Below are positions 1 through 35,094 of a stretch of DNA of 42,270 bases, one piece after another; the stretch's first letter is position 1; every line of letters begins with the position of its first letter. Under the pieces are notes generated by a model. That model was not told the DNA's origin and ran no database searches. It was given only the letters and a program-made list of their open reading frames with translations. This DNA comes from Candidatus Zixiibacteriota bacterium (lineage in GTDB: Bacteria > Zixibacteria > MSB-5A5 > GN15 > FEB-12): assembly GCA_024278515.1 (NCBI GenBank), contig JAJRTA010000121.1, positions 1 to 42,270 of the forward strand, read 5' to 3'. The position numbers were made by a program, and so were the translations under genes.

Positions 1-220
1 GGCCTCAACCGGACAGGACAGAACCGATGACAGAATAATTATTGCCCCGGGGAATATTAGTCGTAACAGCTTCACCATAATGAAATAACATCGGCTGTTC
101 CTTCAGGCAACAAGAGTCTGCCCGGGCATGTTGCCCCGAGGAATAGTATGTTTCAAGATATTTCTCTCTTGTCCGATAATAAAATGAACGCTCGAACTGC
201 GATTGAACGGACGGAAATCT
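1..220. other. Leader region before the pilus operon, no complete gene
   Basis: No complete gene is visible. A + strand frame is open from the left edge to a TAA at 86-88 and another to a TAA at 36-38. Either could be the tail of an upstream gene, but about 10 to 28 residues are too few to recognise. The remainder is probably the 5' leader of the pilus operon. It holds two near-identical 15-mers, TTGCCCCGGGGAATA at 42-56 and TTGCCCCGAGGAATA at 131-145. I see no convincing sigma-70 promoter. Confidence 0.3.
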
Positions 221-1108
221 GTGAAAAAGAAACTTGGTGATCTTCTTGTAGAGAAGGGATATATCACCGAACAACAACTCCAGGAGGGGCTGAGAGAACA
301 GGTCATCTCCGGGCGACGGCTGGGAGAGCTGCTGGTTGAGAAAGAATATATTACCGAGGATCAGCTTCTCGAAACCATATCCGACCGTCTGGGAGTCCCC
401 CAGGTCTCGCTGAGCCAGATGGTGCTCGACCCCCAGGTGGTTCAGACTGTTTCCGTAGACCTGGCCCGCCGCTACACGCTTATTCCGATTTTTGCCATCG
501 GCAACACGATAACACTGGCAATGGCCGATCCGCTGAATATCGTAGCTATCGATGAGATCAGGTATCTGACCGGCTCGGATATCAAAAGAGCGGTCGCCCT
601 GACTTCCGAGATTACCGCGGCCATAGACGAATATTACTCGATCGCCGACTCGCTGGTAGGAATTATGGGCGGCTCTCCCGAGGCTGAGACCGGACGGGAT
701 GAAGATACGGCCGAGACTGTCGAAACAGAAACGCCGGTGGTGAAACTCGTCAACCTGATCATCACCAAGGCGGTCAAGGATCGGGCCACCGATATTCATA
801 TCGAGCCGGAGGAGTCAAGACTACGGGTGCGATGCCGGATCGATGGGGTCATGCGTGAGGAAGCAACGCCGCCCAAAAAAATGCATAACGAGCTGATTTC
901 GCGGATCAAGATTGCGGCCAATCTCGATGTCTCCGAAAAGCGGCTGCCCCAGGATGGCCGGTTTATGACTACAGTAGACGGTCATACGGTCGATCTTCGA
1001 GTCTCCACGCTGCCCACCATCCACGGCGAAAAAATCGTAATCCGTCTTTTGGATCGGAGAAACCTGCTGTTAAATTTCAATCAACTCGGCTTCTCATCAA
1101 AAGTCTAA
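221..1108 (+). CDS. Type IV pilus assembly ATPase (PilB/GspE/MshE family), N-terminal part before an in-frame stop
   Basis: This is the first half of a hexameric cytoplasmic ATPase that would power pilin polymerisation. Residues about 4-56 form two 24-residue MshEN-type repeats (KLGDLLVEKGYIT... and RLGELLVEKEYIT...) separated by five residues, the arrangement that binds cyclic di-GMP in MshE proteins. The N2 domain follows, with the ATPase-entry segment (VKLVNLIITKAV, DIHIEPEE, IHGEKIVIRLLD). I prefer GTG 221, giving MKKKLGDLL as in the family; TTG 203 is an upstream alternative. The reading stops at TAA 1106-1108, immediately before the Walker A motif, and resumes in the same frame. As written, this half has no nucleotide-binding site. 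Together the halves make 575 codons, normal for PilB/GspE. It is first in the pilus operon. Confidence 0.85.
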   Translation: MKKKLGDLLVEKGYITEQQLQEGLREQVISGRRLGELLVEKEYITEDQLLETISDRLGVPQVSLSQMVLDPQVVQTVSVDLARRYTLIPIFAIGNTITLAMADPLNIVAIDEIRYLTGSDIKRAVALTSEITAAIDEYYSIADSLVGIMGGSPEAETGRDEDTAETVETETPVVKLVNLIITKAVKDRATDIHIEPEESRLRVRCRIDGVMREEATPPKKMHNELISRIKIAANLDVSEKRLPQDGRFMTTVDGHTVDLRVSTLPTIHGEKIVIRLLDRRNLLLNFNQLGFSSKV

Positions 1109-1948
1109 GAAAGGTGGAAGAACCTGATTCAGCAACCGGAAGGCCTGGTTCTGATTACCGGACCGACCTCATCCGGTAAAACCTCTACCCTCTACGCCAC
1201 GTTGCAGGAGATCAATTCGGTCGAAAAGAACATCATCACTGTCGAGGACCCGGTCGAGTATTCACTGGGGATGATAATACAGATCCAGATAAATGAAAAA
1301 GCAGGGCTGACTTTCCCGACAACCCTGCGGGCTATCCTTCGTCAGAACCCCGATGTTATTATGATCGGTGAAATACGTGATGGTGAAACCGCCCGCATGG
1401 CGGTGCGTTCGGCCCTTACCGGACATCTTGTTTTTTCGACCATACATACCAACGACGCGCCCTCGGCGGTGACCCGGTTGATCGATATGGGGATCGAAAA
1501 GTACCTCGTTGCCTCGGCTGTCAAGGGGGTTCTGGCTCAGCGACTGGTTCGTCTGAACTGTCCTGATTGTACTGAGACGTACCGACCGGGTGACGCGGTA
1601 TTGCAAAGAGCCGGGTTGATCGAGATGGCTGATGAAATTGAGTTCAAGCGCGGGGTTGGTTGCAGTCAGTGCAAAAATACCGGCCAGCGCGGACTGAACG
1701 GAATCTACGAATATGTCGAGCTGACTCCCGCCTTATCGGAGCTGGTGATGAACGACGCTTCCCTGAACCAACTCAAGGATGAAGCTCGTCGTTCCGGATA
1801 TGTCCCCTTGTTTGAAATGGGCCTGGAAAAAGTGATCGCCGGAAAGATCTGCCTCGAGGAACTGCTGAAAGAGACTACCAATGTCGAGGATTTCACGGCT
1901 CCTTCGATAATAGAGGCCGAGGATATGATCTATGCCGGTACAGTATAA
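1109..1948 (+). CDS. Type IV pilus assembly ATPase, C-terminal part in the same frame after the stop
   Basis: This is the catalytic half of the same PilB/GspE-type ATPase. It continues in the frame of the upstream half with no indel. Walker A is GPTSSGKT at 1160-1183. It is followed by the Asp box (ITVEDPVEY), Walker B ([12 protein letters not shown]), the His box ([12 protein letters not shown]) and the tetracysteine zinc motif (CPDC ... CSQC). The first possible restart codon is TTG 1202, already past Walker A, so independent translation would give an inactive protein. Function therefore needs read-through of TAA 1106 or an intact allele. The end overlaps the start of the PilC gene by 17 bases. 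Confidence 0.85.
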
Positions 1949-10807: not shown

Positions 10808-11530
10808 TTACTTTCTTAGTCTCAGAATAAGAAAAATCCAGGGGCGAACCATCGACCACCAGCCGATAAACGGCCTTATCTTGCTGTAATTGGTCTTCTC
10901 AGCCGGATAAACCATCGCAACCGGAACTTCGACTATACGAAAGCCGAGGGTGGCCGTTTTGTAATGAATGTAGTATTCCATTTCGTAGCGGCCCAGCCAG
11001 TCCTGTTCGATATTGATCCGAGGGTGGTTAAAAATATTCAGCCGGTAGGCCCGAAAGCCGCATGTAATGTCGGTACCCTGGAATCGCAGGAAGATATTAA
11101 CAATGGCCGTAAACAGGCGGATCGTAATTTTACGAAAAGTCGGAAGGTTGGGTGACCTTCCTCCCTCAAGGTATCGTGACCCCTGCACATAGTCGGCGCG
11201 GTTATCGAGAATCGGCTCAATCAATTTCGGTATTTCTTCCGGTTGCATCTTACCGTTGCCGGCCATGATCACGATAATCTCGTAGCCTTGTTTGCGAGCA
11301 TATTTGACGGCATCCCTTATACCCGCGCCAACACCGAGATTTGTGTCATGCCGTATAACCGCATGACCCAACGACGACAAAAACTGCTCGGTGCCATCAT
11401 TGGAGCCATCATCGACAAACAGAAGGTCATAACTTCCATCGGAGGAGAACCTGGGAACGAGCGATTTCAGCTTTTCCCCCTCGTTGTATGTCACAACAGT
11501 AACGAGGACCTCAGACAAGCTATCCCCCAT
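10808..11530 (-). CDS. Family 2 glycosyltransferase (dolichol-phosphate-mannose-synthase-like)
   Basis: This 240-residue GT-A enzyme would transfer a sugar from a nucleotide sugar to a lipid carrier or glycan in the cytoplasm. The N-terminal nucleotide-binding part has VTVVTYNEGEKL and LLFVDDGSNDGT. The usual metal-binding D-x-D (M-D-A-D-x-Q-x-x-P-E) is replaced by MAGNGKMQPEEIP. QGSRYLEGGRSPNLPTFRKI and TDITCGFRAYR are typical acceptor-side motifs. The end is hydrophobic (WSMVRPWIFLILRL) without a full membrane domain. It is last in the glycosylation operon, and its start overlaps the acetyltransferase end by 11 bases. The AGN variant recurs in a polyprenyl-phosphate GT2 subgroup as I recall, so it need not be inactive. 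Confidence 0.85.
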   Translation of the reverse strand: MGDSLSEVLVTVVTYNEGEKLKSLVPRFSSDGSYDLLFVDDGSNDGTEQFLSSLGHAVIRHDTNLGVGAGIRDAVKYARKQGYEIIVIMAGNGKMQPEEIPKLIEPILDNRADYVQGSRYLEGGRSPNLPTFRKITIRLFTAIVNIFLRFQGTDITCGFRAYRLNIFNHPRINIEQDWLGRYEMEYYIHYKTATLGFRIVEVPVAMVYPAEKTNYSKIRPFIGWWSMVRPWIFLILRLRK

Positions 11531-12110
11531 CGGGAAGTTTTATCACTACCTTGTTTTCGAGCCGATACTTTCGACCACACGAGCAGGTAACGACATCCCC
11601 GCGTTCGACCGCATCTCCATCGAGACGTTCGGCGCAGGCGCAGACATAACCGGCAATTCGAGCCGGATTGCCCAGCCAGAGGGTGAAGTCGGGGGCATCC
11701 TTGGTAAGCACCGCACCGGCTCCGATAAAAGCAAAACGGCCCACCGTGTGCCCGGCAATAATCACCGCGTTGGCTCCTATGGTAGCGCCAAGGCGAATAA
11801 GAGTACGATCCGGCTGGTCATGAAAGACCTTGCTGCGTGGCTTGATGTCGTTGGTGAAAACAGCGTTGGGACCGATAAAGACATCGTCTTCGATGGTAAC
11901 GCCCGTCCAGAGCGAGACGCCGTTCTTTACAGTTACCCGGTCGCCGATTGTTACATCGTGCTCGACAAAGCAGTGATCGCAAATGTTGCAGTCGGCACCG
12001 ATTACAGCCCTTTCCTGAATGTTCGAGAAAGCCCAGATACGGGTGCCCGTGCCGATATTACTACTGTCGCAGATTGCTTTCGGATGCACGAAATATTCAG
12101 AGTCGGCCAT
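11520..12110 (-). CDS. Sugar N-acetyltransferase, left-handed beta-helix (WbpD/WlbB-like), with C-terminal CxC...CxC
   Basis: This 196-residue protein has hexapeptide repeats (residues about 12-150: IGTGTRIWAFSNI, IGADCNICDHCFVEHDVTIG, IEDDVFIGPNAVFTND, IGANAVIIAGHTVGRFAFIG). It ends its core with WLGNPARIAG as in WbpD/WlbB, which acetylate the 3-amino group of UDP-GlcNAc3N-uronate. After the helix, CAC and CSC about 20 residues apart look like a small zinc ribbon, seen in some members. ATG 12110 (MADSEYFVHP) is preferred. It lies just after a Gfo/Idh dehydrogenase, the usual WbpB partner. The matching aminotransferase (WbpE) is not in the window, so the exact sugar is uncertain. It ends with TAG inside the next gene start. 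Confidence 0.85.
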   Translation of the reverse strand: MADSEYFVHPKAICDSSNIGTGTRIWAFSNIQERAVIGADCNICDHCFVEHDVTIGDRVTVKNGVSLWTGVTIEDDVFIGPNAVFTNDIKPRSKVFHDQPDRTLIRLGATIGANAVIIAGHTVGRFAFIGAGAVLTKDAPDFTLWLGNPARIAGYVCACAERLDGDAVERGDVVTCSCGRKYRLENKVVIKLPDGG

Positions 12111-12114
12111 AAAC

Positions 12115-13131
12115 TCAATCCAGTTCAATCACCCGGCTGTTTTCACGAATAGAACGATTGGCCGCTTCCAGAATACGCACAACTCTCAGGCCGGCATCAG
12201 CATCGGTTTTTGGGGCCCGGTTTTCATTTACGGCTTTGTAAAACTCGGCGCTGGCCAGTTTGAGCGCTTCCGTGGAATCAAGGCGGGGAGCAAGCATGTC
12301 ACCGGTGCGATACTGAACGAGAATATCATAGATCGCGTTCTTGTCCTCGATCATCTCCACCCCGCGCTCGTATACTTTGACTTTCTCCGATGGATCGGTG
12401 TCGTCATAGATAACCATCTGACGTGATCCGGACAGCAGTGTCTTGCGTACTTTGACCGGAGCCAGCCAGTTGACATGAATATGGCCGAGTAAATTGCCTT
12501 CATAATAAGTGGAGATGGAGGCGATATTCTCGATATCGGTATCGAAATGGGCCATGCCGGTAGCGGCGATCGCTTTGGGTTGACGATCCAACAGGTAATC
12601 CATGATCGACACATCATGCGGGGCCAGGTCCCATATCACGTTGACATCATGCTGGAACAGGCCGAGATTGACCCGCACTGAATCGAAATAATACAGCTCC
12701 CCCAGGGTGCCGTCATCAACCAGTTTCCTGATCGCCTGAACCGCCCCTGTGAATATGAATGTGTGATCAACCATAATCCGGAGGTTCTTCTGTTCGGCCA
12801 GATTGATCAGCCCTTCGGCCTGTTCGACGGTCGCAGTGAACGGTTTTTCAATAAACAGATGTTTGCCGTTGGCCAGCGCTTCCATCCCGAGCGGAAAATG
12901 AGTAGAAACCGGAGTGGCTATGACCACGGCGTCAATATCGGGCGACTTGAGAATCTCGCCGGATTCCTTCGTAAATAAACGGATCGCCGGATACTGACGC
13001 CTGATAAAATCAAGCCTTTCCTCGCGCGAATCGCAGACAGCCACAACAGTGACTTCATCCATCGCGCTGAAATTCCTTACCAGGTTCGGGCCCCAGTAGC
13101 CGCAGCCGATTACACCGACTTTCATCTGCAA
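12115..13131 (-). CDS. Gfo/Idh/MocA-family sugar dehydrogenase (WbpB/WlbA-like)
   Basis: This 338-residue NAD(P)-dependent oxidoreductase has an N-terminal Rossmann fold (VGVIGCGYWGPNLVRNF, then D/R at strand 2), the EKPFT motif of the Gfo/Idh family (residues about 92-96), and a C-terminal alpha/beta dimer domain with DLAPHDVSIMDYLL, where the catalytic His lies. Members next to WbpD-type acetyltransferases oxidise C3 of UDP-GlcNAc-uronate before transamination, so this is the probable step. The next gene starts right after its stop. An alternative is a scyllo-inositol or other sugar dehydrogenase; context disfavours this. Confidence 0.85.
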   Translation of the reverse strand: MQMKVGVIGCGYWGPNLVRNFSAMDEVTVVAVCDSREERLDFIRRQYPAIRLFTKESGEILKSPDIDAVVIATPVSTHFPLGMEALANGKHLFIEKPFTATVEQAEGLINLAEQKNLRIMVDHTFIFTGAVQAIRKLVDDGTLGELYYFDSVRVNLGLFQHDVNVIWDLAPHDVSIMDYLLDRQPKAIAATGMAHFDTDIENIASISTYYEGNLLGHIHVNWLAPVKVRKTLLSGSRQMVIYDDTDPSEKVKVYERGVEMIEDKNAIYDILVQYRTGDMLAPRLDSTEALKLASAEFYKAVNENRAPKTDADAGLRVVRILEAANRSIRENSRVIELD

Positions 13132-13143
13132 CCTTTCACATTG

Positions 13144-15354
13144 TCAGTACAGCGAAAATTCGCCTTTCTCATTTAAGCGTACCAGAAACATATTGTATCG
13201 TCCGATCTGGCGTCCGATCGACGGCGACAGATCACGGCCGCTTACAATCTCGTCACCGTTCGAGTCAATATAATATGAAATAACCGAATCCGACATGAAT
13301 TTAACCTCTTCCCGAATTCGCGGGTCGCCGCGATGGTTATGCCGTTCCACCGATGTTTTCGTAAGGGACGGGATGAACGAGGCGCCTCCCTGAGTCCCAT
13401 AAATATACAACGCCTCTTCGGCGTCTGCCGACGGAGTAAGATTTAACGATACGTCGACATAACCCTGTCGCTCGATGGATTGATTTATTTCTCCGGGCAG
13501 CAACTCTATGAAAGCATACTGTCTGAAAGCGGCGATATCGATCCGTTCCAGTCGCGCATACTCAGTATAGGTCGGCTTGGAGTAAAAATGGCGGCGTAAC
13601 GGTTCCTGTCCGAGGATATATGAGCCGGTGCGTCGGCCAATTTTTACTTCGAACAGAGGCGGTTTGCCTTCAGGTACGTTCATATCTACCAACAGCCACC
13701 AGACGGACGGCACATTCTCAGGCATGAGGTCGGACAGATAGAATCTGGTCCCGGCCCGAACCTCCGGGTCATCGATACGGCAAGCGAACTCCGACCAGTT
13801 GTCGCGAGACAGGACCGGCGTCACTACTACCACAACGTACGGTATCACGACCAAAATCACCATAAGCCACCGGTATAACGGGCCTGTGTCACGAAGCAGG
13901 ATGCGGGACAGGATATACAGCGCAAAACCAATAAATCCTGCTTTGAAAACCAGGCCAGGCAATACCAAACCGTATGTTTGAGCCGATCCCATAAGCAGTG
14001 CGACCCATGATGGTTCGAACACCGCCCCGGCCGGTATCAACAGAATCGCCTGCAAAACATGGCGCCAACGGTTGGTGGATTTGTTACTCAGTTCATCATA
14101 CAGTGTTGTCACGGTCCAGGCCGCCATAATGAACAACAGCGGCAACGCATTAAAGCTGTATCGGTTGAGCGAGTGAAATATCAGATGGATTGCAGTATAG
14201 TAGCCGCTGATAAGAACAGGCCAGACAGCCAGACGAAATGACCGGAACAAAAGCACGATCATCCCGATCAGCCCGAAAAAAATTACCGCGCTGTGCAGCC
14301 AGCGTACGAAGGATTCAGGCAGAATAAACGACCGCTTGAAGGCAATATAGGGACTGCTCCACAGCCGTTCGAATTTTTTGGCGAACAAACCGAGATATTC
14401 CGGTAACCGGGGAATCAGGTCATCATACGGCTGACGTTCCCAGAAATCATCATCCACACGGTCGAGGTCGTATCCTTCATATTCAATGGATGAAGATTGC
14501 CGCAGGTTCGCACCGGCATAGGATGGATCCCGAAGAGTCGGTTGATCGAATTTGATCGAGGCCACAGTCAACCAGGCCGCAAACATGATCAGGGCGGGAA
14601 CAGCCATTATCCCCACACGGCGAATAAACCGACGAAGCGACAATTTATTTCGGGTATAGAAATAAAACCCGACAACCAGCGGGATGCTTATGAACATCGC
14701 GGTCGGCTTGTGCATGACCAACAGACCGCATACAACTCCGGCCAGAGTGAAAAAAAGTCGACGATCGGTCTCTGCTCCCCGCATCAGCAGATAGATCCCC
14801 AGCAGGATGAAGAAGCTGGTCGATGTCTCCAGCAAAAGAACCGTCGATGTCTGGATGAACGGGAAATAGATCGCGTACAACACTCCACCGACAATAGCAG
14901 CCCTCCGTCCGGCCAGTCTTCGCGCCACCAAAATCAGCATCCACAGAGCGCCGAGATCGAATAATATGCCCAGGAGTCGAGCGAAGGTAAAATCTGCAAC
15001 CGGCGCAAGCGCGAATATTGCCGCCAGCAAGGCCGGATACAGAGGGCCGGCCAGAAAAATATCATCCCGCGCCTGGGTAAGAGAAGAGGGTGTGTAAAAC
15101 TGGAAATCTATCGGTTCCCCCTGAATATATTTTTCGTAGTAATGCTTGAAGGCGTACCGGTCGGCGCGTTCATCGGATGACGTCTCCGGGCCGGAACTGT
15201 CCAGGTATGAGATCATGCCGATCGCGGCGCAGGCATATCTGCGGGCGTCCCAGATCACCGGCAACACTTCACCGGACAAAAGAAAGGCGATACGGATCAG
15301 TCCGGCGGCTATAACAACAGCCGGAACTGTTTTCCGAAACCATGTATCAGCCAT
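13144..15354 (-). CDS. GT39/ArnT-like polytopic membrane glycosyltransferase with periplasmic C-terminal domain
   Basis: This 736-residue protein belongs to the GT-C fold (GT39/PMT/ArnT type), which moves sugars from polyprenyl-phosphate donors to periplasmic acceptors. An N-terminal helix is followed by a loop with acidic residues (VIWDARRYACAA and YTPSSLTQARDD), where GT-C enzymes hold their catalytic Asp. About ten helices follow to residue about 515 (including LLGIYLLMRG, VVCGLLVMHKPTAMF, SLNRYSFNALPLLFIMAAWT). Residues about 530-736 are soluble and beta-rich (VDMNVPEGKPPLFEVKIG ... YVDVSLNLTPSADAEEALYI) and probably fold in the periplasm. I do not recognise that domain. It sits between the YbhN-like and sugar dehydrogenase genes. 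Confidence 0.8.
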   Translation of the reverse strand: MADTWFRKTVPAVVIAAGLIRIAFLLSGEVLPVIWDARRYACAAIGMISYLDSSGPETSSDERADRYAFKHYYEKYIQGEPIDFQFYTPSSLTQARDDIFLAGPLYPALLAAIFALAPVADFTFARLLGILFDLGALWMLILVARRLAGRRAAIVGGVLYAIYFPFIQTSTVLLLETSTSFFILLGIYLLMRGAETDRRLFFTLAGVVCGLLVMHKPTAMFISIPLVVGFYFYTRNKLSLRRFIRRVGIMAVPALIMFAAWLTVASIKFDQPTLRDPSYAGANLRQSSSIEYEGYDLDRVDDDFWERQPYDDLIPRLPEYLGLFAKKFERLWSSPYIAFKRSFILPESFVRWLHSAVIFFGLIGMIVLLFRSFRLAVWPVLISGYYTAIHLIFHSLNRYSFNALPLLFIMAAWTVTTLYDELSNKSTNRWRHVLQAILLIPAGAVFEPSWVALLMGSAQTYGLVLPGLVFKAGFIGFALYILSRILLRDTGPLYRWLMVILVVIPYVVVVVTPVLSRDNWSEFACRIDDPEVRAGTRFYLSDLMPENVPSVWWLLVDMNVPEGKPPLFEVKIGRRTGSYILGQEPLRRHFYSKPTYTEYARLERIDIAAFRQYAFIELLPGEINQSIERQGYVDVSLNLTPSADAEEALYIYGTQGGASFIPSLTKTSVERHNHRGDPRIREEVKFMSDSVISYYIDSNGDEIVSGRDLSPSIGRQIGRYNMFLVRLNEKGEFSLY

Positions 15355-15404
15355 TGTTTACCCCGCGGGATAACATCAGGGAAAGTGAACATGTCACGAC
15401 TGAT

Positions 15405-16439
15405 CTACGTCGTGCCTGACGGTGTCTCTTCATTATCTGCAGAAGCCTCATCCTCGAGCTGCTTGAGCGAGAGGTGTTCTTTTTTGAGATAAACAAAACC
15501 CATAAATGTGACCAATATGTACTGGGCGGCGTGTAAAACCAGAGCGCATGACAACGCTTCCGGTCGAGAGACACCATACGCTTCCAGCGACCAGACCGCA
15601 CCGGCATGATAGACTCCGACAAACCCGGGCGAGGAGGGCACGAGAATGGAAACCGAAACCACTACCAGCACCACGAACGAGGCGTCCAGAGGAAGGTTCA
15701 GCCCGAATGCGCGAAATACGAACAGGTTGGATATCCCCATCAGGATCCAGATGAACAGGGTTTGCAGTCCGATCCAGCCGGTTACTTTCTTGTCGCCAAG
15801 AAATTCAAGACCACGTGAGAACTTTACAAGAATCGAAACGATCACCTGCTTCCCTTTCTCGGGGATAAAGAACAGGTACCGCCCGATGGCCCGGCCGGTC
15901 TGTTCCGGACGACGCGCCAGGATGAAGATCATAATAAGACCGACCAGGGCTACGGCAATCGCAACAGCCAGCCCCAGACGCATCGATTCATCAAGATGTA
16001 TTCGTGAAAAGTACAGCACCGAACCAAAGATCAAAAGAAGAGCGACCAGGTCAAAGACCATCCGCTCGACAAAAATCGTAGCCAGCGAGGCGGACTTGGT
16101 TATCTGCTTATGTTGTGATGAAAGCGAATAGGCGCGGACAAACTCACCAAGCCGTAACGGCAGGACATTGTTGGCCATGAAGCCGATCCAGGTAGCGGCA
16201 ATCAGTTTGGAGAAGGGTACTTTTCCGATTGGGGCCACCATATATTTCCAGCGATAGGCGCGCTGGTACATAGTGAAAAAAATCAAGGCGATGTTGGGAA
16301 TAAGCCAGACATAACTGGCCCCTTTCAGAGCCGACCAGAGCTCCCCGAAATGAATATTACGAAACAGCGCCCAGATCAGACCAGCCGAGATGGCCAGTCC
16401 CAGGGAAAAATAAAATGTTCTTTTGCCACGAATTGTCAT
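15405..16439 (-). CDS. YbhN/UPF0104 (LPG synthase transmembrane-region-like) membrane protein
   Basis: This 344-residue polytopic protein resembles the membrane domain of lysylphosphatidylglycerol synthase (flippase-like family). The hallmarks are YRWKYMVAPIGKVPFSKLIA, ATWIGFMANNVLPLRLGEFVRAY, FVERMVFDLVALLLIFG and the late SPGFVGVYHAGAVWSLEAYG. The aminoacyl-transfer domain is absent. Such stand-alone proteins often sit in glycan operons and are thought to move lipid-linked material across the membrane; this is inference. The C-terminus (QLEDEASADNEETPSGTT) is acidic and cytosolic. It starts two bases after the GT4 stop and ends with TAG. Confidence 0.85.
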   Translation of the reverse strand: MTIRGKRTFYFSLGLAISAGLIWALFRNIHFGELWSALKGASYVWLIPNIALIFFTMYQRAYRWKYMVAPIGKVPFSKLIAATWIGFMANNVLPLRLGEFVRAYSLSSQHKQITKSASLATIFVERMVFDLVALLLIFGSVLYFSRIHLDESMRLGLAVAIAVALVGLIMIFILARRPEQTGRAIGRYLFFIPEKGKQVIVSILVKFSRGLEFLGDKKVTGWIGLQTLFIWILMGISNLFVFRAFGLNLPLDASFVVLVVVSVSILVPSSPGFVGVYHAGAVWSLEAYGVSRPEALSCALVLHAAQYILVTFMGFVYLKKEHLSLKQLEDEASADNEETPSGTT

Positions 16440-16441
16440 TA

Positions 16442-17551
16442 TCAGTCAGCCAGTACTTCTTTTACAACCTTCTCGAATTTAGCCGCGGCATCATCCCAGT
16501 TAAACTTATCGGCCCATTCGAGGCCGCCCTTTTCCAGGTTTGCTCTCAGCTTATCATCGGTCAGGATGGCCAGGAGTTTCCCGGCCAGCTGATCAATATC
16601 ACCGTACTCGTACAGAAACCCGGTTCGACCGTCTCGGACCGAGTCGCGCAATCCGGGGGAGTCGGCCGCGACAACAGTAGTGCCGACAGCGTTGGCTTCG
16701 ATATTGGTCAAGCCCCAGCCTTCCTTGAGACTGGGTAACACCGCAACATGAGAGCGGCGCAGAGTGTCGACCTTTACCTCCGGTGAAACAAAACCGGGGA
16801 ATTCCACCTGTTCAGCACAACCCAACTGTCCGGCTAAAGCTTTGAGCGTATCGAGATAATCACCGGCGCCGACAATTTTCAGACGGGCTTCGGGCAGTTT
16901 TTCACGAACTTTTACAAAAGCGCGAATCAGGTGGTGTATTGATTTGTACTTTTTCAGTCGCCCCAGATATAATATCGTCGGTTCATCGTACTTGCTGACA
17001 GAGCTGTCCGGATAATAGGTATCACGATCAATTCCGCAGTGCACAACCGAGATATCTTCGCGCGGTATCCCCCGCGCCACCATATCATCGGCGGTCGATT
17101 CTGAGATAACGTTGAAGTGCAAACCTCGATAGACCGGAATCAGGGGGCGTTCGGCCAGATAGATATAGCTGCCGAGCACGAAATTGATTTCATGAAAAAC
17201 GGTTGTGGCAAACAGGTGCGGAACGACCACAAGAGTTTTCAGATTCAGGTAAAGCGGTGTGTAAAACGGTATCTTGTTGATATCTTCGATGAGAATATCG
17301 AACCGGTTCTCACGGACAATCCGCCTGAGATGAAACGGCGCCACCAGGTTGAAATTAAAACGATTACCCCGGCGAATTATCCGGATTCCCTCGATCACTT
17401 CTTCCGGGCGGCAACCCTTGAACCCGGAACAGAATAAAGTAACCTCATGGCCGAACCTGACCAGTCGTCGAAGCAGTTCTTCAAGGTGTACCTCGGCCCC
17501 GCCGCCGTAAGGATTCTTGAGATCGTTCCAGTTCAGGGCCAGAATTTTCAT
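16442..17551 (-). CDS. Family 4 glycosyltransferase (GT-B fold)
   Basis: This 369-residue retaining glycosyltransferase has N-terminal acceptor-side motifs LNWNDLKNPYGGGAEVHLEE and LVRFGHEVTLFCSG. The C-terminal donor domain has ILYLGRLKKYKSIHHLIRAF, LKIVGAGDYLDTL and the E-x7-E motif (EGWGLTNIEANAVGTTVVA). It is cytoplasmic and likely adds a hexose to a lipid-linked glycan. ATG 17551 overlaps the TGA of the upstream DUF2723 gene (ATGA), so translation is coupled. The exact sugar cannot be told from sequence. Confidence 0.9.
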   Translation of the reverse strand: MKILALNWNDLKNPYGGGAEVHLEELLRRLVRFGHEVTLFCSGFKGCRPEEVIEGIRIIRRGNRFNFNLVAPFHLRRIVRENRFDILIEDINKIPFYTPLYLNLKTLVVVPHLFATTVFHEINFVLGSYIYLAERPLIPVYRGLHFNVISESTADDMVARGIPREDISVVHCGIDRDTYYPDSSVSKYDEPTILYLGRLKKYKSIHHLIRAFVKVREKLPEARLKIVGAGDYLDTLKALAGQLGCAEQVEFPGFVSPEVKVDTLRRSHVAVLPSLKEGWGLTNIEANAVGTTVVAADSPGLRDSVRDGRTGFLYEYGDIDQLAGKLLAILTDDKLRANLEKGGLEWADKFNWDDAAAKFEKVVKEVLAD

Positions 17552-19128
17552 TGACTGTCCTGATTATTCCGACCCTGCCGGCGTCCCTGCCTTCGCAGAT
17601 CGGTCAGCATCGCCCTTATCTGGCCGTCACGCGGATTAAACTGCAGCCACCGGGCCAGTAAGCTGTCCATCGCGGCCGGGCGGTTGTCCTCGAAGTACAG
17701 CCGGATAAGTTCATCCAGAGCCGGACGGTATTTCGGACTGGAATGCAACATAGCCTGAAGCATTTGCTCCGCGGTTGCGTTGTCATCATTTGTGCGATGA
17801 CCCCGGGCAAGCAATACCTGCAACCATTCGCGATCACCGGCCTGTGCGTCGGCGATAAGTTCAGTAAGCTGTTCTACTTTGCCCGTTTCAGCATAGAGAG
17901 AAGCAAGGAACTCGACCGCATCGCCCGAATGTGGAATCAGGTCCACCGCGTGCCGGATCAGTTTCTCCGCTTTTTCAAGATCACCGGCCTTTCGAAGCGT
18001 GTCGGCCACCACCAGAAACCCGTTGGCGTAATTACCGGTAAGACGACGGGCTGTTTCATTTTTGTAAACTGTCGGATCTGCTACCGAGCGCGCCTGAAAG
18101 CGGCCCTCGGTCAGGAAGAAATCCAAAGAGGCCTCGATATCCACCCGGCGGCCACCCGCCTCCTCGTTGAGCTTCCACATCATCCCGCTGAGTGAAAGCA
18201 TCGAGTCGATTTTTCTCCCCAGGTAATACTTGGAGCCTCCCCCCATTGAAACTGCATAGTTGATGGGACGCTTACCGAGATACGAATAGATAATCTTATC
18301 CTGCACCATGCTGTTTAATCGGAAGGTCCTTCCGTACGGTACGCCGAGGGCATACAGGCTGTCCTTTTCCTGTTCTGACACCGCAAGGTAATCATACAGC
18401 GATTTATCAATATACTGTTGCCGTTGTACCAGGGTCATACTGTCGGGAATATGGAACGGCCGCAACTCGTCGATATGCTTGTTGCTCCAGCCGAGATCAA
18501 GGCCCATCGCGTCCTGAATCTGCTTGATATACCATTTCGTGTTGGCCAGCGCGAGACAGATTATAGTGACATCAGTGCGAATTCCGTAAACTCCCTGCAT
18601 GCACCACAACGGGAAAGTGTCGTTGTCGCCATTCGTGAACAGGACCGCATTTTCCTCAGCGCTGTCCAGCAGGTTCCAGGCATAATCCCACGGTGTCCAG
18701 TCGCGTGAACGGTCACAATAGAAATAATTACCCGACAGAGCCAGTGACGGCAACAGTAGAAGCGCCGTGCTCGAAGCAATTATTACCTTACGCGGACCGG
18801 GAGAGAACTTTTCAACCGACTGTCTCAGGTATTGCAGAACAACAGCAATGCCGAAGCCTATCGACAGACCGAAAAGGATAAACCCTGAGGTAAAGAAGTA
18901 GTCACGTTCGCGAACCTCGATGTAGTCCTGACCGGCCGGAGTCATACGCGTGCCGTCGGCAAAGTTCATATACAGAACCAGCCCCACTGTACTCAGCAAA
19001 ATCAAGACCACGAACGGCAACCCGATTGTCGGTCGCCTGCGTACAATCTCCCACAGGCCGAACAGGCCGAGCAAAAACAGTATCACGAATCTCGGGCCGG
19101 TAAGTCCGTACTGTTTCTGGAAAAAGTG
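17548..19128 (-). CDS. DUF2723 membrane glycosyltransferase, C-terminal part after an in-frame stop, with TPR tail
   Basis: This frame continues that of the upstream half after TAG 19129-19131 with no shift. It begins HFFQKQYGLTGPR, then has four helices, and then the characteristic periplasmic segment LFTNGDNDTFPLWCMQGVYG and RTDVTIICLALANTKWYIKQ. The end (residues about 850-1030 of the whole protein) is helical and TPR-like (DLEKAEKLIRHAVDLIPHSG, ALDELIRLYFEDNRPAAM), finishing in basic RRQGRRQGRNN. The first start codon is GTG 19086 within a membrane helix, so separate translation would make an odd fragment. The intact protein would have about 1038 residues, normal for DUF2723 proteins with a TPR tail. 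Confidence 0.85.
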   Translation of the reverse strand, partial: HFFQKQYGLTGPRFVILFLLGLFGLWEIVRRRPTIGLPFVVLILLSTVGLVLYMNFADGTRMTPAGQDYIEVRERDYFFTSGFILFGLSIGFGIAVVLQYLRQSVEKFSPGPRKVIIASSTALLLLPSLALSGNYFYCDRSRDWTPWDYAWNLLDSAEENAVLFTNGDNDTFPLWCMQGVYGIRTDVTIICLALANTKWYIKQIQDAMGLDLGWSNKHIDELRPFHIPDSMTLVQRQQYIDKSLYDYLAVSEQEKDSLYALGVPYGRTFRLNSMVQDKIIYSYLGKRPINYAVSMGGGSKYYLGRKIDSMLSLSGMMWKLNEEAGGRRVDIEASLDFFLTEGRFQARSVADPTVYKNETARRLTGNYANGFLVVADTLRKAGDLEKAEKLIRHAVDLIPHSGDAVEFLASLYAETGKVEQLTELIADAQAGDREWLQVLLARGHRTNDDNATAEQMLQAMLHSSPKYRPALDELIRLYFEDNRPAAMDSLLARWLQFNPRDGQIRAMLTDLRRQGRRQGRNNQDSQ

Positions 19129-20664
19129 CTAGAAACCCATTCGACGGTAATTGCCGAACTGGTTCTCCCATTCGCCGCGACGTTTGAACATCCGCTCCAC
19201 CATGCCCATCGAACCGTACTGTTTGCGTTCGAGAAAGTTGATCGTCGCCTGGTAACCGTCGGACGGCTTGTTTTCATCGAGATACGGATTCTGTGCTGAG
19301 CGAATCGGAATAAACAGGTTCACAGAAAATCCGAATGCCGCCACCACGATGATTATCAATGCCGATTTCCAGCGCGGCATTTTGAACAACAGTCCAAGCG
19401 CAAGAACGATAAGCAACCCGACTCCGGTCGCATAGAAATACAATTCAAGACCGATAACCACAGTCGAAATACAAACAAGCGCGGCAAGGATCGGCCAGTT
19501 GATCTCACGCCACTGAAACAATACCAGAACGATCAATGCAATTACCGACAACACAAGGAACGGAATATATCCTTTCGGTACGTATAAAAGCAGCACCATG
19601 AGAGCGGCGGCCAGTATAAACCATGCCTGAATCCTGAAACGTGATTTTTGATCTCGTGAGGTACCGCCCGAAAGGTACTTGCTTAGACAGTACAGCCCAT
19701 AAAGTATCATCGCCCCAAACGCAATCTGCCCGATCAGTGTGGCGGCGCTCATGGCCGGACTGGGACCCGCCACAACCTTTCCCGGTTGAGTGGTGGCCGT
19801 TTCGACAGCCTTAACATACAGGGGAGCGATACTGACCAGAAAACCGCCGCATAGATACAGAAAAACGGCCGGTATTTTATCGAATGAAAAAATATAGAAA
19901 AGGTACAGGGTGAGAACCATGACCACGGGAAGGTAGTACGGAATCTCCCCCTCGCGCGAGGACAGCGCGAAAACCATGTACAGCTCGGCCAGGAAAAACA
20001 GCGCCACGCCAAACCAGGTCGAGGCCGGCGCTTCTTTGCGGATCACAAACAACAGGGCGGCCACCGGCAGGACGAGAAATGTGACCATGTGCACACCGAT
20101 TCCCAAAAACGAGACAAATACGATAAGCAGCATAATGCGTTCGGCAGTGAGACTGCCCCGCAGGTCCTTATAAACGAAAGTCAGCCAGAGAGCGCCTGAG
20201 CTGATCATCATGGCCATTCCATAAACTTCGGCCTCTATCGAATTGGTCCAGTTGGTCAGACTGAAAGCGGCGAACAATGCCCCTGCGGCCGCGCCACCGT
20301 AAATCAGCAGACGTGTGAAAGCAGAAGCGGTTTCATCGAACCAGTGACGAAGAATCCGCACACCGGTCAGGTAACAGAAAAGGGCGGTGAAAGCCGAGCA
20401 GAAACCGGACAGGAAATTCAGTCTGACACCGATATCCGACACTACCGGTATCAGTGAAAAAATCCGTCCGATCATAACATACAACGGCGAACCGGGCGGA
20501 TGGGGAATGGAAAGCGTATATGCGGCAGTGATGAATTCGCCGCAGTCCCAGAACGATAAAGTGACATGTTTGGTCATCCAGTAGACGACCATTGCCGCAA
20601 TCCAGACAAAAGCCCCGATCAGAGCGTTGGTTTGGTCGAATTCTTTGTCGAAATATAGTTTCAT
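19129..20664 (-). CDS. DUF2723 (TMEM260-like) membrane glycosyltransferase, N-terminal part before an in-frame stop
   Basis: DUF2723 proteins are GT-C-fold membrane proteins related to O-mannosyltransferases. The signature is here: SFWDCGEFITAAYTLSIPHP then PGSPLYVMIGRIFSLIP, carrying the D and E expected in the first periplasmic loop. About eleven further hydrophobic segments follow to residue 480, then the loop LFIPIRSAQNPYLDENKPSD and MVERMFKRRGEWENQFGNYRRMGF before TAG at codon 512. Homologues continue here with another helix, supplied by the next reading in the same frame. It is the first gene of a 10-kb glycan operon, behind a likely promoter at 20744-20771. Acceptor and sugar are unknown; surface protein O-glycosylation is the best guess. 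Confidence 0.85.
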   Translation of the reverse strand: MKLYFDKEFDQTNALIGAFVWIAAMVVYWMTKHVTLSFWDCGEFITAAYTLSIPHPPGSPLYVMIGRIFSLIPVVSDIGVRLNFLSGFCSAFTALFCYLTGVRILRHWFDETASAFTRLLIYGGAAAGALFAAFSLTNWTNSIEAEVYGMAMMISSGALWLTFVYKDLRGSLTAERIMLLIVFVSFLGIGVHMVTFLVLPVAALLFVIRKEAPASTWFGVALFFLAELYMVFALSSREGEIPYYLPVVMVLTLYLFYIFSFDKIPAVFLYLCGGFLVSIAPLYVKAVETATTQPGKVVAGPSPAMSAATLIGQIAFGAMILYGLYCLSKYLSGGTSRDQKSRFRIQAWFILAAALMVLLLYVPKGYIPFLVLSVIALIVLVLFQWREINWPILAALVCISTVVIGLELYFYATGVGLLIVLALGLLFKMPRWKSALIIIVVAAFGFSVNLFIPIRSAQNPYLDENKPSDGYQATINFLERKQYGSMGMVERMFKRRGEWENQFGNYRRMGF

Positions 20665-24890: not shown

Positions 24891-24940
24891 GCATACACAG
24901 ACACCGTCAGCACGGTTCTGCCAGAGCAAGAATCGTCATG

Positions 24941-25057
24941 ATCTTCTCTCATCCGGACTATTGCCGTCGGCGCCTGAATTTCACAGACTCTGCTGATGAC
25001 TTCATCAGCTCGCGGGCTGTAACCGCCGGTCGAGGAATTCCACCTCACCCCGAAGAT
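24941..25057 (-). promoter_or_regulatory. FMN riboswitch (RFN element)
   Basis: This is an aptamer of 117 nt on the - strand. The outer stem is ATCTTCGGGG at the 5' end with GAGAGAAGAT at the 3' end. The conserved blocks follow in order: GGTGGAATTCCTCGACCGGC, GGTTACAGCCCGCGAGC, a variable stem GCTGATGAAGTCATCAGC, GTGAAATTCAGGCGCCGACG and AATAGTCCGGATGAGAG. It represses the ribD-ribE-ribBA-ribH-nusB operon when FMN is plentiful. Confidence 0.97.
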
Positions 25058-25068
25058 TTATAGAGCGA

Positions 25069-33166: not shown

Positions 33167-34339
33167 TCAGTTGTTTTCGTCAGAGCCGGTTGAACGCATG
33201 ACTTCATCGTAAACCTGTGCGAGTGGGACACCCTCACGGAGTGCGGCTTCACGGCAGTCCTCGTACTCGGGGGCAATGCGTTCTGTCCGTCCCAGGCGGG
33301 AAACTTTCACTCGTATCTCACCGAAATGAGTACGGACTGTGCGTGTTTCACGTTTCAACTTGCGCCGCATCAGGCGTTGTGTGCGAATACCGATAGTGCT
33401 GGTCTCGGCAAAAATCGTAGAAGACAACGCATCATACCGGGCCTGATCAGCCAGTACGGAGAGAGTTACCGCGGGACGATTCTTCTTCATCTGAATCGGC
33501 GTAAACCAGACATCCCGCGCACCCTCCGATAATAAACGTTCCATAACATAACCGAGACGTTCACCGGTCATATCGTCAAGGTTGCACTCCATCAGGAGTA
33601 TTTCGTCAATTTCGAGGCTGTCGGTTGCGCTTTCACCGATCACGACACGGATCATATTGGGGATTTCGAGGTCGCGGCTCCCGGCTCCATAGCCGACCGA
33701 GGTTGTGGTCATCGGAGGAACCGGGCCAAAACTGTCAGCCAGTGTTTTCAGAAGAGCCGCGCCGGTGGGTGTGGTCAGCTCGGATCGGATACCGGATGAC
33801 CAGGTCGGCGCTCCCTTCAGTATTTCCAGGGTCGCAGGAGCAGGTACCGGCATTTTGCCGTGCTCACACTCGATAAATCCGGTTCCGAAGTGGACAGGTG
33901 AAACCATAATTTGCCTAATGCCGAGATAGTCAAGCCCGATCACCGTACCGACAATATCAACAATAGCATCAAGAGCGCCGACTTCGTGAAAATGAATCTT
34001 GTCGGTGGTAGTGCCGTGGATTTTGGCCTCGGCGCGAGCGAGTGTTTCAAATACAGCTATGCCGCGCGACTTCACCTGGCCGGACAGGTCGCTATGGTCA
34101 ATAATCTCCGTAATATCGCCAAGGTGTCGATGGACATTTTGCTCCCCGGTTATCACACTGAGTTTGGTCCCGCTGATTCCGTTTTTCATCACCCTGTCAC
34201 ACTGCAGATCGAAGCCGTCCAACTTAAGTTTTGCCAGCTCGCTTTTCAGAAAATCGAACGGCAACCCGGCGTCGATCAGCGCTCCGAGGATCATATCCCC
34301 TGCCGCCCCGGCGAAGCAGTCAAAATAGGCCAGTTTCAT
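33167..34339 (-). CDS. larC: Nickel-pincer cofactor nickel-insertion protein LarC
   Basis: This 390-residue CTP-dependent cyclometallase inserts nickel into the pincer cofactor. It opens [20 protein letters not shown], followed by [20 protein letters not shown] with the metal-binding His/Glu. The C-terminal domain has [36 protein letters not shown] and [20 protein letters not shown]. In Lactobacillus plantarum larC needs a programmed frameshift to make the full protein; here one continuous frame encodes both domains. Its ATG overlaps the larB TGA by four bases (ATGA). Last gene of larE-larB-larC. Confidence 0.95.
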
Positions 34340-34593
34340 TTATCGACCCCCATCAGGTTTGTGACTGCGGCAAAATAACCGGCGCCGAAGCCGTTGTCGA
34401 TATTTACCACCGCGATACCGGGCGAGCAACTGTTAAGCATGGACAAAAGAGCGGCAAGGCCGTTGAAACTGGCCCCGTACCCGACCGATGTCGGCACCGC
34501 CACCACCGGACAGTCAACCATCCCCCCGACCACCGAGGCCAACGCGCCTTCCATGCCGGCCACAACAATCACTATAGCGGCTTCGAACAGTGT
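34336..34593 (-). CDS. larB: LarB, C-terminal part in the same frame after a stop
   Basis: This continues the larB frame immediately after TAG 34594-34596 with [20 protein letters not shown], then [20 protein letters not shown] and [20 protein letters not shown], the most conserved part of LarB (it resembles PurE). Without the upstream half it lacks much of the active site. The possible internal start is GTG 34572. The frame ends by a 4-base overlap with larC, so the downstream coupling is intact, arguing against long-term decay. Confidence 0.85.
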
Positions 34594-35094
34594 CTACTTA
34601 TTATGAAGGTGGCGATGAATCCCGGCTACCCCGTTATCATACAGGCGATCGACCGGATTACTCATAGACTCTGCTGTCACAGCCGCTTCTTCGGCAACCG
34701 GCATATCGGATGTCCCGGCCGACACAACGACGATCTTCTTCCCTGTGCGAGGTTCGGGCAGTTGTCCGCTGAGGATGATTTGGGCCGTTTCATGGTAAAC
34801 CGTATTCGGATATACCTTATGGACCGCGTTGAACAGATCCGGCGCGGCCTTGGTGGCCATAACCAGCCTGTCACCAACGGCAAGTTTGCCGAAAATCGCA
34901 ATAACCTGTTTTGTTGTTTTACCTTTGCAAAAAACCACTTCAGGGAAACCTCGCCTGAGGTCACGATGTGTATCAAGCTTGGCGAAACCGATATCTTCGT
35001 ACGGCAGGTTTTTGAGCTGAGTCATGGCCTGGTCAATGTCAAGCCGGTGATTTCTGATATCTTCCAGCAGTTTTCTCAGGTTATTCCTGTCCAT
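34594..35094 (-). CDS. larB: Pyridinium-3,5-biscarboxylic acid mononucleotide synthase LarB, N-terminal part before an in-frame stop
   Basis: LarB carboxylates and hydrolyses nicotinic acid adenine dinucleotide at the first step of nickel-pincer cofactor synthesis. This half has the typical N-terminal helical region (LRKLLEDIRNHRLDIDQAMT, LPYEDIGFAKLDTHRDLRRG), FPEVVFCKGKTTKQVIAIF, and KKIVVVSAGTSDMPVAEEAA then TAE, ending DRLYDNGVAGIHRHLHNK before TAG at codon 167. Homologues continue here without a break. The combined 252 codons match LarB. It overlaps larE by 14 bases. Confidence 0.88.
   Translation of the reverse strand: MDRNNLRKLLEDIRNHRLDIDQAMTQLKNLPYEDIGFAKLDTHRDLRRGFPEVVFCKGKTTKQVIAIFGKLAVGDRLVMATKAAPDLFNAVHKVYPNTVYHETAQIILSGQLPEPRTGKKIVVVSAGTSDMPVAEEAAVTAESMSNPVDRLYDNGVAGIHRHLHNK

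Follow-up and report, generated by a model that had tools for sequence, protein, structure and literature searches.

An unshared TAG in a conserved TMEM260-like gene of a FEB-12 bacterium, probably a consensus error or minor allele in the assembly

Introduction

Consensus errors and genes interrupted by nonsense codons occur in metagenome-assembled genomes. The gene described here resembles such cases in that a single stop, not shared by relatives, lies in a conserved gene, and several such stops fall on one contig. It also resembles selenocysteine and pyrrolysine recoding, where an in-frame stop has conserved coding sequence on both sides, but differs in that the TAG is not shared by its homologues. 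DUF3179 proteins with a UxxC/T motif are already a listed selenoprotein family according to two articles (PMC9312934, PMC13188914).

The interrupted gene belongs to the family of PF11028, which we take to be the former DUF2723; a literature search under the name DUF2723 returned nothing. Pfam describes the family as protein O-mannosyl-transferase TMEM260-like, and PMC11292533 places TMEM260 among the families that initiate O-mannosylation. By this likeness, the gene product of the FEB-12 bacterium may transfer sugar to protein. It shares with the family the N-terminal domain and full-length relatives of about 1000 residues, and differs from it in being broken by an unshared TAG.

The stretch analyzed here, referred to as the window, is a 42,270-nucleotide contig (JAJRTA010000121.1) of assembly GCA_024278515.1 from Candidatus Zixiibacteriota. 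It corresponds to contig C85 of our genome G000, a 2.86 Mb assembly in 257 contigs rated 98.9% complete.

Results

The frame from the ATG at 20664 to the TGA at 17548-17550 on the - strand contains one in-frame stop only, a TAG that divides it into 511 and 526 codons and stands as residue X512 of 1038 (Table 1). The same frame lies on either side of the TAG, and the two parts jointly make about 1038 residues, as originally predicted. The N-terminal half matches PF11028 at 161.4 bits against a cut-off of 24.2 (residues 40-211). Pfam matches in the C-terminal half are to TPR models only, yet that half is covered by full-length homologues. Family signatures had been claimed for both parts, and the Pfam matches bear this out for the N-terminal part and not for the C-terminal one.

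Table 1. Coordinates of the interrupted gene, its neighbors and the other interrupted genes of the assembly (positions are those of the window unless a contig is given)
Feature	Position	Strand	Remark
N-terminal 511 codons, TMEM260-like (PF11028) membrane glycosyltransferase	19132..20664	-	Upstream of the stop
In-frame TAG	19129..19131	-	Residue 512
First start-like codon downstream of TAG, GTG	19084..19086	-	No Shine-Dalgarno sequence evident by eye
C-terminal 526 codons and TGA	17548..19128	-	TPR repeats near the end
Next gene, GT4-type glycosyltransferase	16442..17551	-	Open frame; ATGA overlap with the end of the interrupted gene
Rest of glycan-type cluster: LPG_synthase_TM, PMT_2, GFO/IDH/MocA oxidoreductase, hexapeptide transferase, GT2	10808..16439	-	
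TAA in PilB/GspE-type ATPase (203..1948)	1106..1108	+	29/29 aligned homologues open, Glu in 22
TAG in LarB (AIRC; 35094..34336)	34594..34596	-	13/13 aligned homologues open, Glu in 9
TGA in HD-domain protein	C82:21992 (L094:1992-1994)	+	Gly in 19/19 aligned homologues
TAA inside GT2 domain	C254 (L096:19129-19131)	+	19 homologues: 8 Glu, 7 Lys, 4 others
TAA in TonB-dependent receptor	C226 (L151:13401-13403)	-	Pfam barrel match spans the stop
TAG in Ig/PKD-type repeat protein (3151+472 codons)	C168 (L168:18518-18520)	+	Por secretion tail after the stop

We searched 54 genomes from the GTDB family to which the window belongs, its own genome among them, at E <= 1e-20. The C-terminal half was matched in 53 of them, G037 being the exception, and none of the C-terminal-half matches listed contained an internal stop. 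This search yielded 30 loci, of which the window's own was left out and the remaining 29, one per genome, were aligned. The alignment at position 512, which the original prediction had called for, gave tryptophan encoded by TGG in all 29 homologues, within the motif RRMGFW.FF..QYG, and every one of them runs as one uninterrupted frame. An additional homologue in G036, on a contig that ends soon past the site, is likewise open across it, its TGG codon being read by position. Homologues broken into two proteins here, the observation that would have spoken against a split gene, did not occur among the 29. Since each homologue reads through the site in one frame, both halves belong to a single gene, and the claim of one glycosyltransferase-type gene split by an in-frame TAG stands. 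The TAG differs from TGG by one base and, among the homologues compared, is present in this assembly only. No second orthologous copy was found in the assembly, which holds paralogues only, on C194 and, weakly, C193. A wider contig scan matched two loci, with no other assembly of the species among them.

Downstream, the overlap at 17551/17548 fits coupled translation of the next gene, and the rest of the cluster is collinear and unbroken in comparison with relatives G033 and G034. The idea of a coupled operon head thus agrees with the overlap, while the operon itself is deduced from gene order and spacing. Elsewhere in the window, an FMN riboswitch (24937-25061, - strand, 102.2 bits) precedes - strand riboflavin genes followed by nusB.

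Conservation was compared on the two sides of the stop. Amino-acid identity to G033 is 0.714 before and 0.703 after it. The corresponding pN/pS values, rough since synonymous sites are near saturation, are 0.274 and 0.255 against G033, 0.338 and 0.317 against G034, and 0.435 and 0.404 against G032. For the intact pair G033-G034 they are 0.331 before and 0.299 after the equivalent site. Relaxed selection past the TAG is therefore not visible in these comparisons, pN/pS being about equal on both sides as in the intact pair. With conservation equal before and after the stop, the substitution is of recent origin or is not a real one; the same pattern would be expected of a very young pseudogene.

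Two further genes of the window are interrupted (Table 1). The stop in the PilB/GspE-type ATPase was found by comparison with stretches of G033 and G034 (L091, L092) that are syntenic with the window over about 0.2-25 kb; neither matches the window past about 25 kb, where the synteny comparison ends. Within that range, no frameshift was found in the genes comparable with both relatives. The PilB homologues were drawn from 30 loci with the own locus left out. The stop in LarB, whose gene overlaps a LarC-type nickel insertion gene as ATGA, was found by a hexamer scan. Clustering of stops on this contig was given no test, as the window had been chosen for having one such stop.

The hexamer scan for interrupted genes, using the best of six frames, returned 13 raw matches in 540,250 bases of G000 (33 stretches, window included), 11 in 456,001 bases of G033 (23 stretches) and none in 57,001 bases of G034 (3 stretches). 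Scans based on codon usage were dropped as too noisy, neither of them having listed the PilB site. Five of the 13 matches in G000 were checked by homologue columns (three in the window and those on C82 and C254, the latter two each against 20 loci less their own) and one by a spanning domain (C226). The stop at L168:18518 is a probable interruption, with no domain spanning it, and the match at L158:798 is a TGA shared by orthologues, described below. The other five, comprising two matches in L102 and one each in L101, L152 and L168:6462, were set aside by eye as neighboring genes or ambiguous. Thus, 498 kb of other G000 contigs contain three more interrupted genes (C82, C254 and C226), and the sampled fifth of the genome holds five besides the TMEM260-like gene, with all three kinds of stop represented.

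Among the 11 matches in G033, ten appeared by eye to be neighboring genes or alternative frames and one, in mnmE (L177), was ambiguous; Pfam searches on five of the 11 gave no domain spanning a stop. The excess of interrupted genes in G000 over G033 is small in number. At L177:18930 (+) of G033, the MnmE frame lies directly after YidC with no ATG, GTG or TTG ahead of its N-terminal domain, and an ATG in another frame and a run of A stand just before it; a frameshift or base-count error at this run is possible. Other assemblies also contain such stops, the PilB match of G048 having two internal TGA codons and the HD-domain match of G047 one TAA. All 28 ABC_tran matches of G000 are free of internal stops.

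We also counted private changes at columns that are otherwise invariant. Random error as the source of all three nonsense codons in the window would imply about 0.22% per coding base, a rate at which a hand estimate gives about 2 extra changes at the invariant columns of the three genes. The DUF2723 gene has 3 private changes including the stop (mean of the other rows 1.34), PilB has 1 (1.14) and LarB has 1 (1.38). Excluding the stop, the three genes have 4 such changes in all, where the means of the other rows add up to 3.86, so that no excess of private changes shows in the three broken genes, in a comparison of low power. A G-to-T excess, from oxidative damage or a mutator, was dropped as an explanation, one transition among five inferred changes being not unusual (P = 0.21 for at most one of five when the transition/transversion rate ratio is 4).

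A different kind of in-frame stop occurs in this genome's DUF3179 gene (contig C58, L158:90-1154, - strand), where a TGA at 798-800 lies in a TW*PLC motif and a PF11376 match of 223.7 bits runs across it. We fetched 23 other loci, of which 15 (L230-L243 and L245, from 14 genomes) are orthologous and cover the site; the same TGA is present in all 15. L244 stops short of the site, the best matches in L250-L252 are neighboring orthologues already counted (L237, L236 and L240), and the paralogues in L246-L249 have cysteine codons at the TGA position. Shortly 3' of the TGA, complementary arms GGCAU/AUGCC or GGUAU/AUACC are found in 16 of 16 loci, our own included, and in single-sequence folds of 15 loci the arms appeared paired by eye in all but L238 and L239. 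Judged from these sequence features, the DUF3179 gene of G000 is a selenoprotein gene of an already known family with a truly recoded stop.

Discussion

The original prediction hinted at a special meaning for the nonsense codon, which the evidence does not support: the stop is absent from the homologues compared, five further genes are interrupted, and no suppressor was found. Conservation is complete downstream of the TAG, as would be expected if a suppressor tRNA or a pyrrolysine-type system inserted an amino acid at it, or if it were read through. However, no homologue looked at carries the stop, and the interrupted genes of G000 use TAA, TAG and TGA rather than one codon. Nor is TAG rare as a true stop, ending 91 of 375 frames in the sampled DNA of the genome and 7 of 37 in the window (non-overlapping frames of at least 150 codons, broken genes included), and release factor RF1 is present above cut-off (TIGR00019, 509.8 bits). 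PylS had no match in the genome, in a search whose control passed its cut-off in one genome of the 14 named. ARAGORN read all 38 tRNA matches in the genome, and no anticodon pairing with a stop codon, CUA included, occurs among them; the set is incomplete, tRNA-His and tRNA-Asp being missing too, so the absence of a suppressor tRNA is no proof. RNA structure past the TAG is unremarkable (z of -0.77, with 45 of 200 shuffles as good). Decoding or read-through of this TAG is accordingly very unlikely. Even harder to credit is the view that the organism carries a raised nonsense load in conserved genes, tolerated through general read-through or a suppressor tRNA in unassembled gaps. Two working polypeptides made by restart at the GTG are extremely improbable as well. 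That codon follows the stop after 14 intervening codons, ahead of the first ATG, which comes after 53, but no aligned homologue (0 of 29) is split there, a ribosome-binding site is not evident by eye, and the restart would drop the conserved FF..QYG segment. The GTG does lie within the hydrophobic stretch FVILFLLGLFGLW, in line with the predicted restart inside a membrane helix, although the helix is called by eye.

Unshared stops of three kinds in unrelated conserved genes, together with the conservation kept around the TAG, point to either the assembly or a very recent mutation. We consider the TAG to be probably an error of the consensus or a minor allele that the assembly picked up, and not a change fixed in the living population; an origin in the assembly, and not in the cell, is favored by the other unshared stops, two on the same contig and three interrupted genes on others. 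A real and recently fixed nonsense mutation, which would make the gene a young pseudogene in this strain along with pilB and larB, is possible but on balance doubtful. The change is a single clean substitution, the window genes compared over about 0.2-25 kb are free of frameshifts, several further interruptions elsewhere in the genome would fit relaxed selection, and the private missense excess that random error would give is lacking. The private-change result and the 28 stop-free ABC_tran matches do count against a general error load. Against fixation, however, stand the lack of decay past the stop and the need for several unrelated conserved genes to have been lost independently, all very recently, and with no second orthologue found in the assembly, no twin would make up for the loss.

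The change itself is a one-base substitution of TGG to TAG in an otherwise intact TMEM260-like gene. Read literally, the sequence would have translation stop after residue 511, leaving the C-terminal half unmade and lowering translation of the coupled downstream gene.

The interrupted gene matters little by itself and is an ordinary case. It serves as a warning that single in-frame stops in fragmented assemblies need checking against relatives. The two stops of this genome differ in just this respect, the TGA of the DUF3179 gene being shared by its orthologues and the TAG of the TMEM260-like gene being unshared: the former is real recoding as judged by that comparison, whereas the latter is probably noise.
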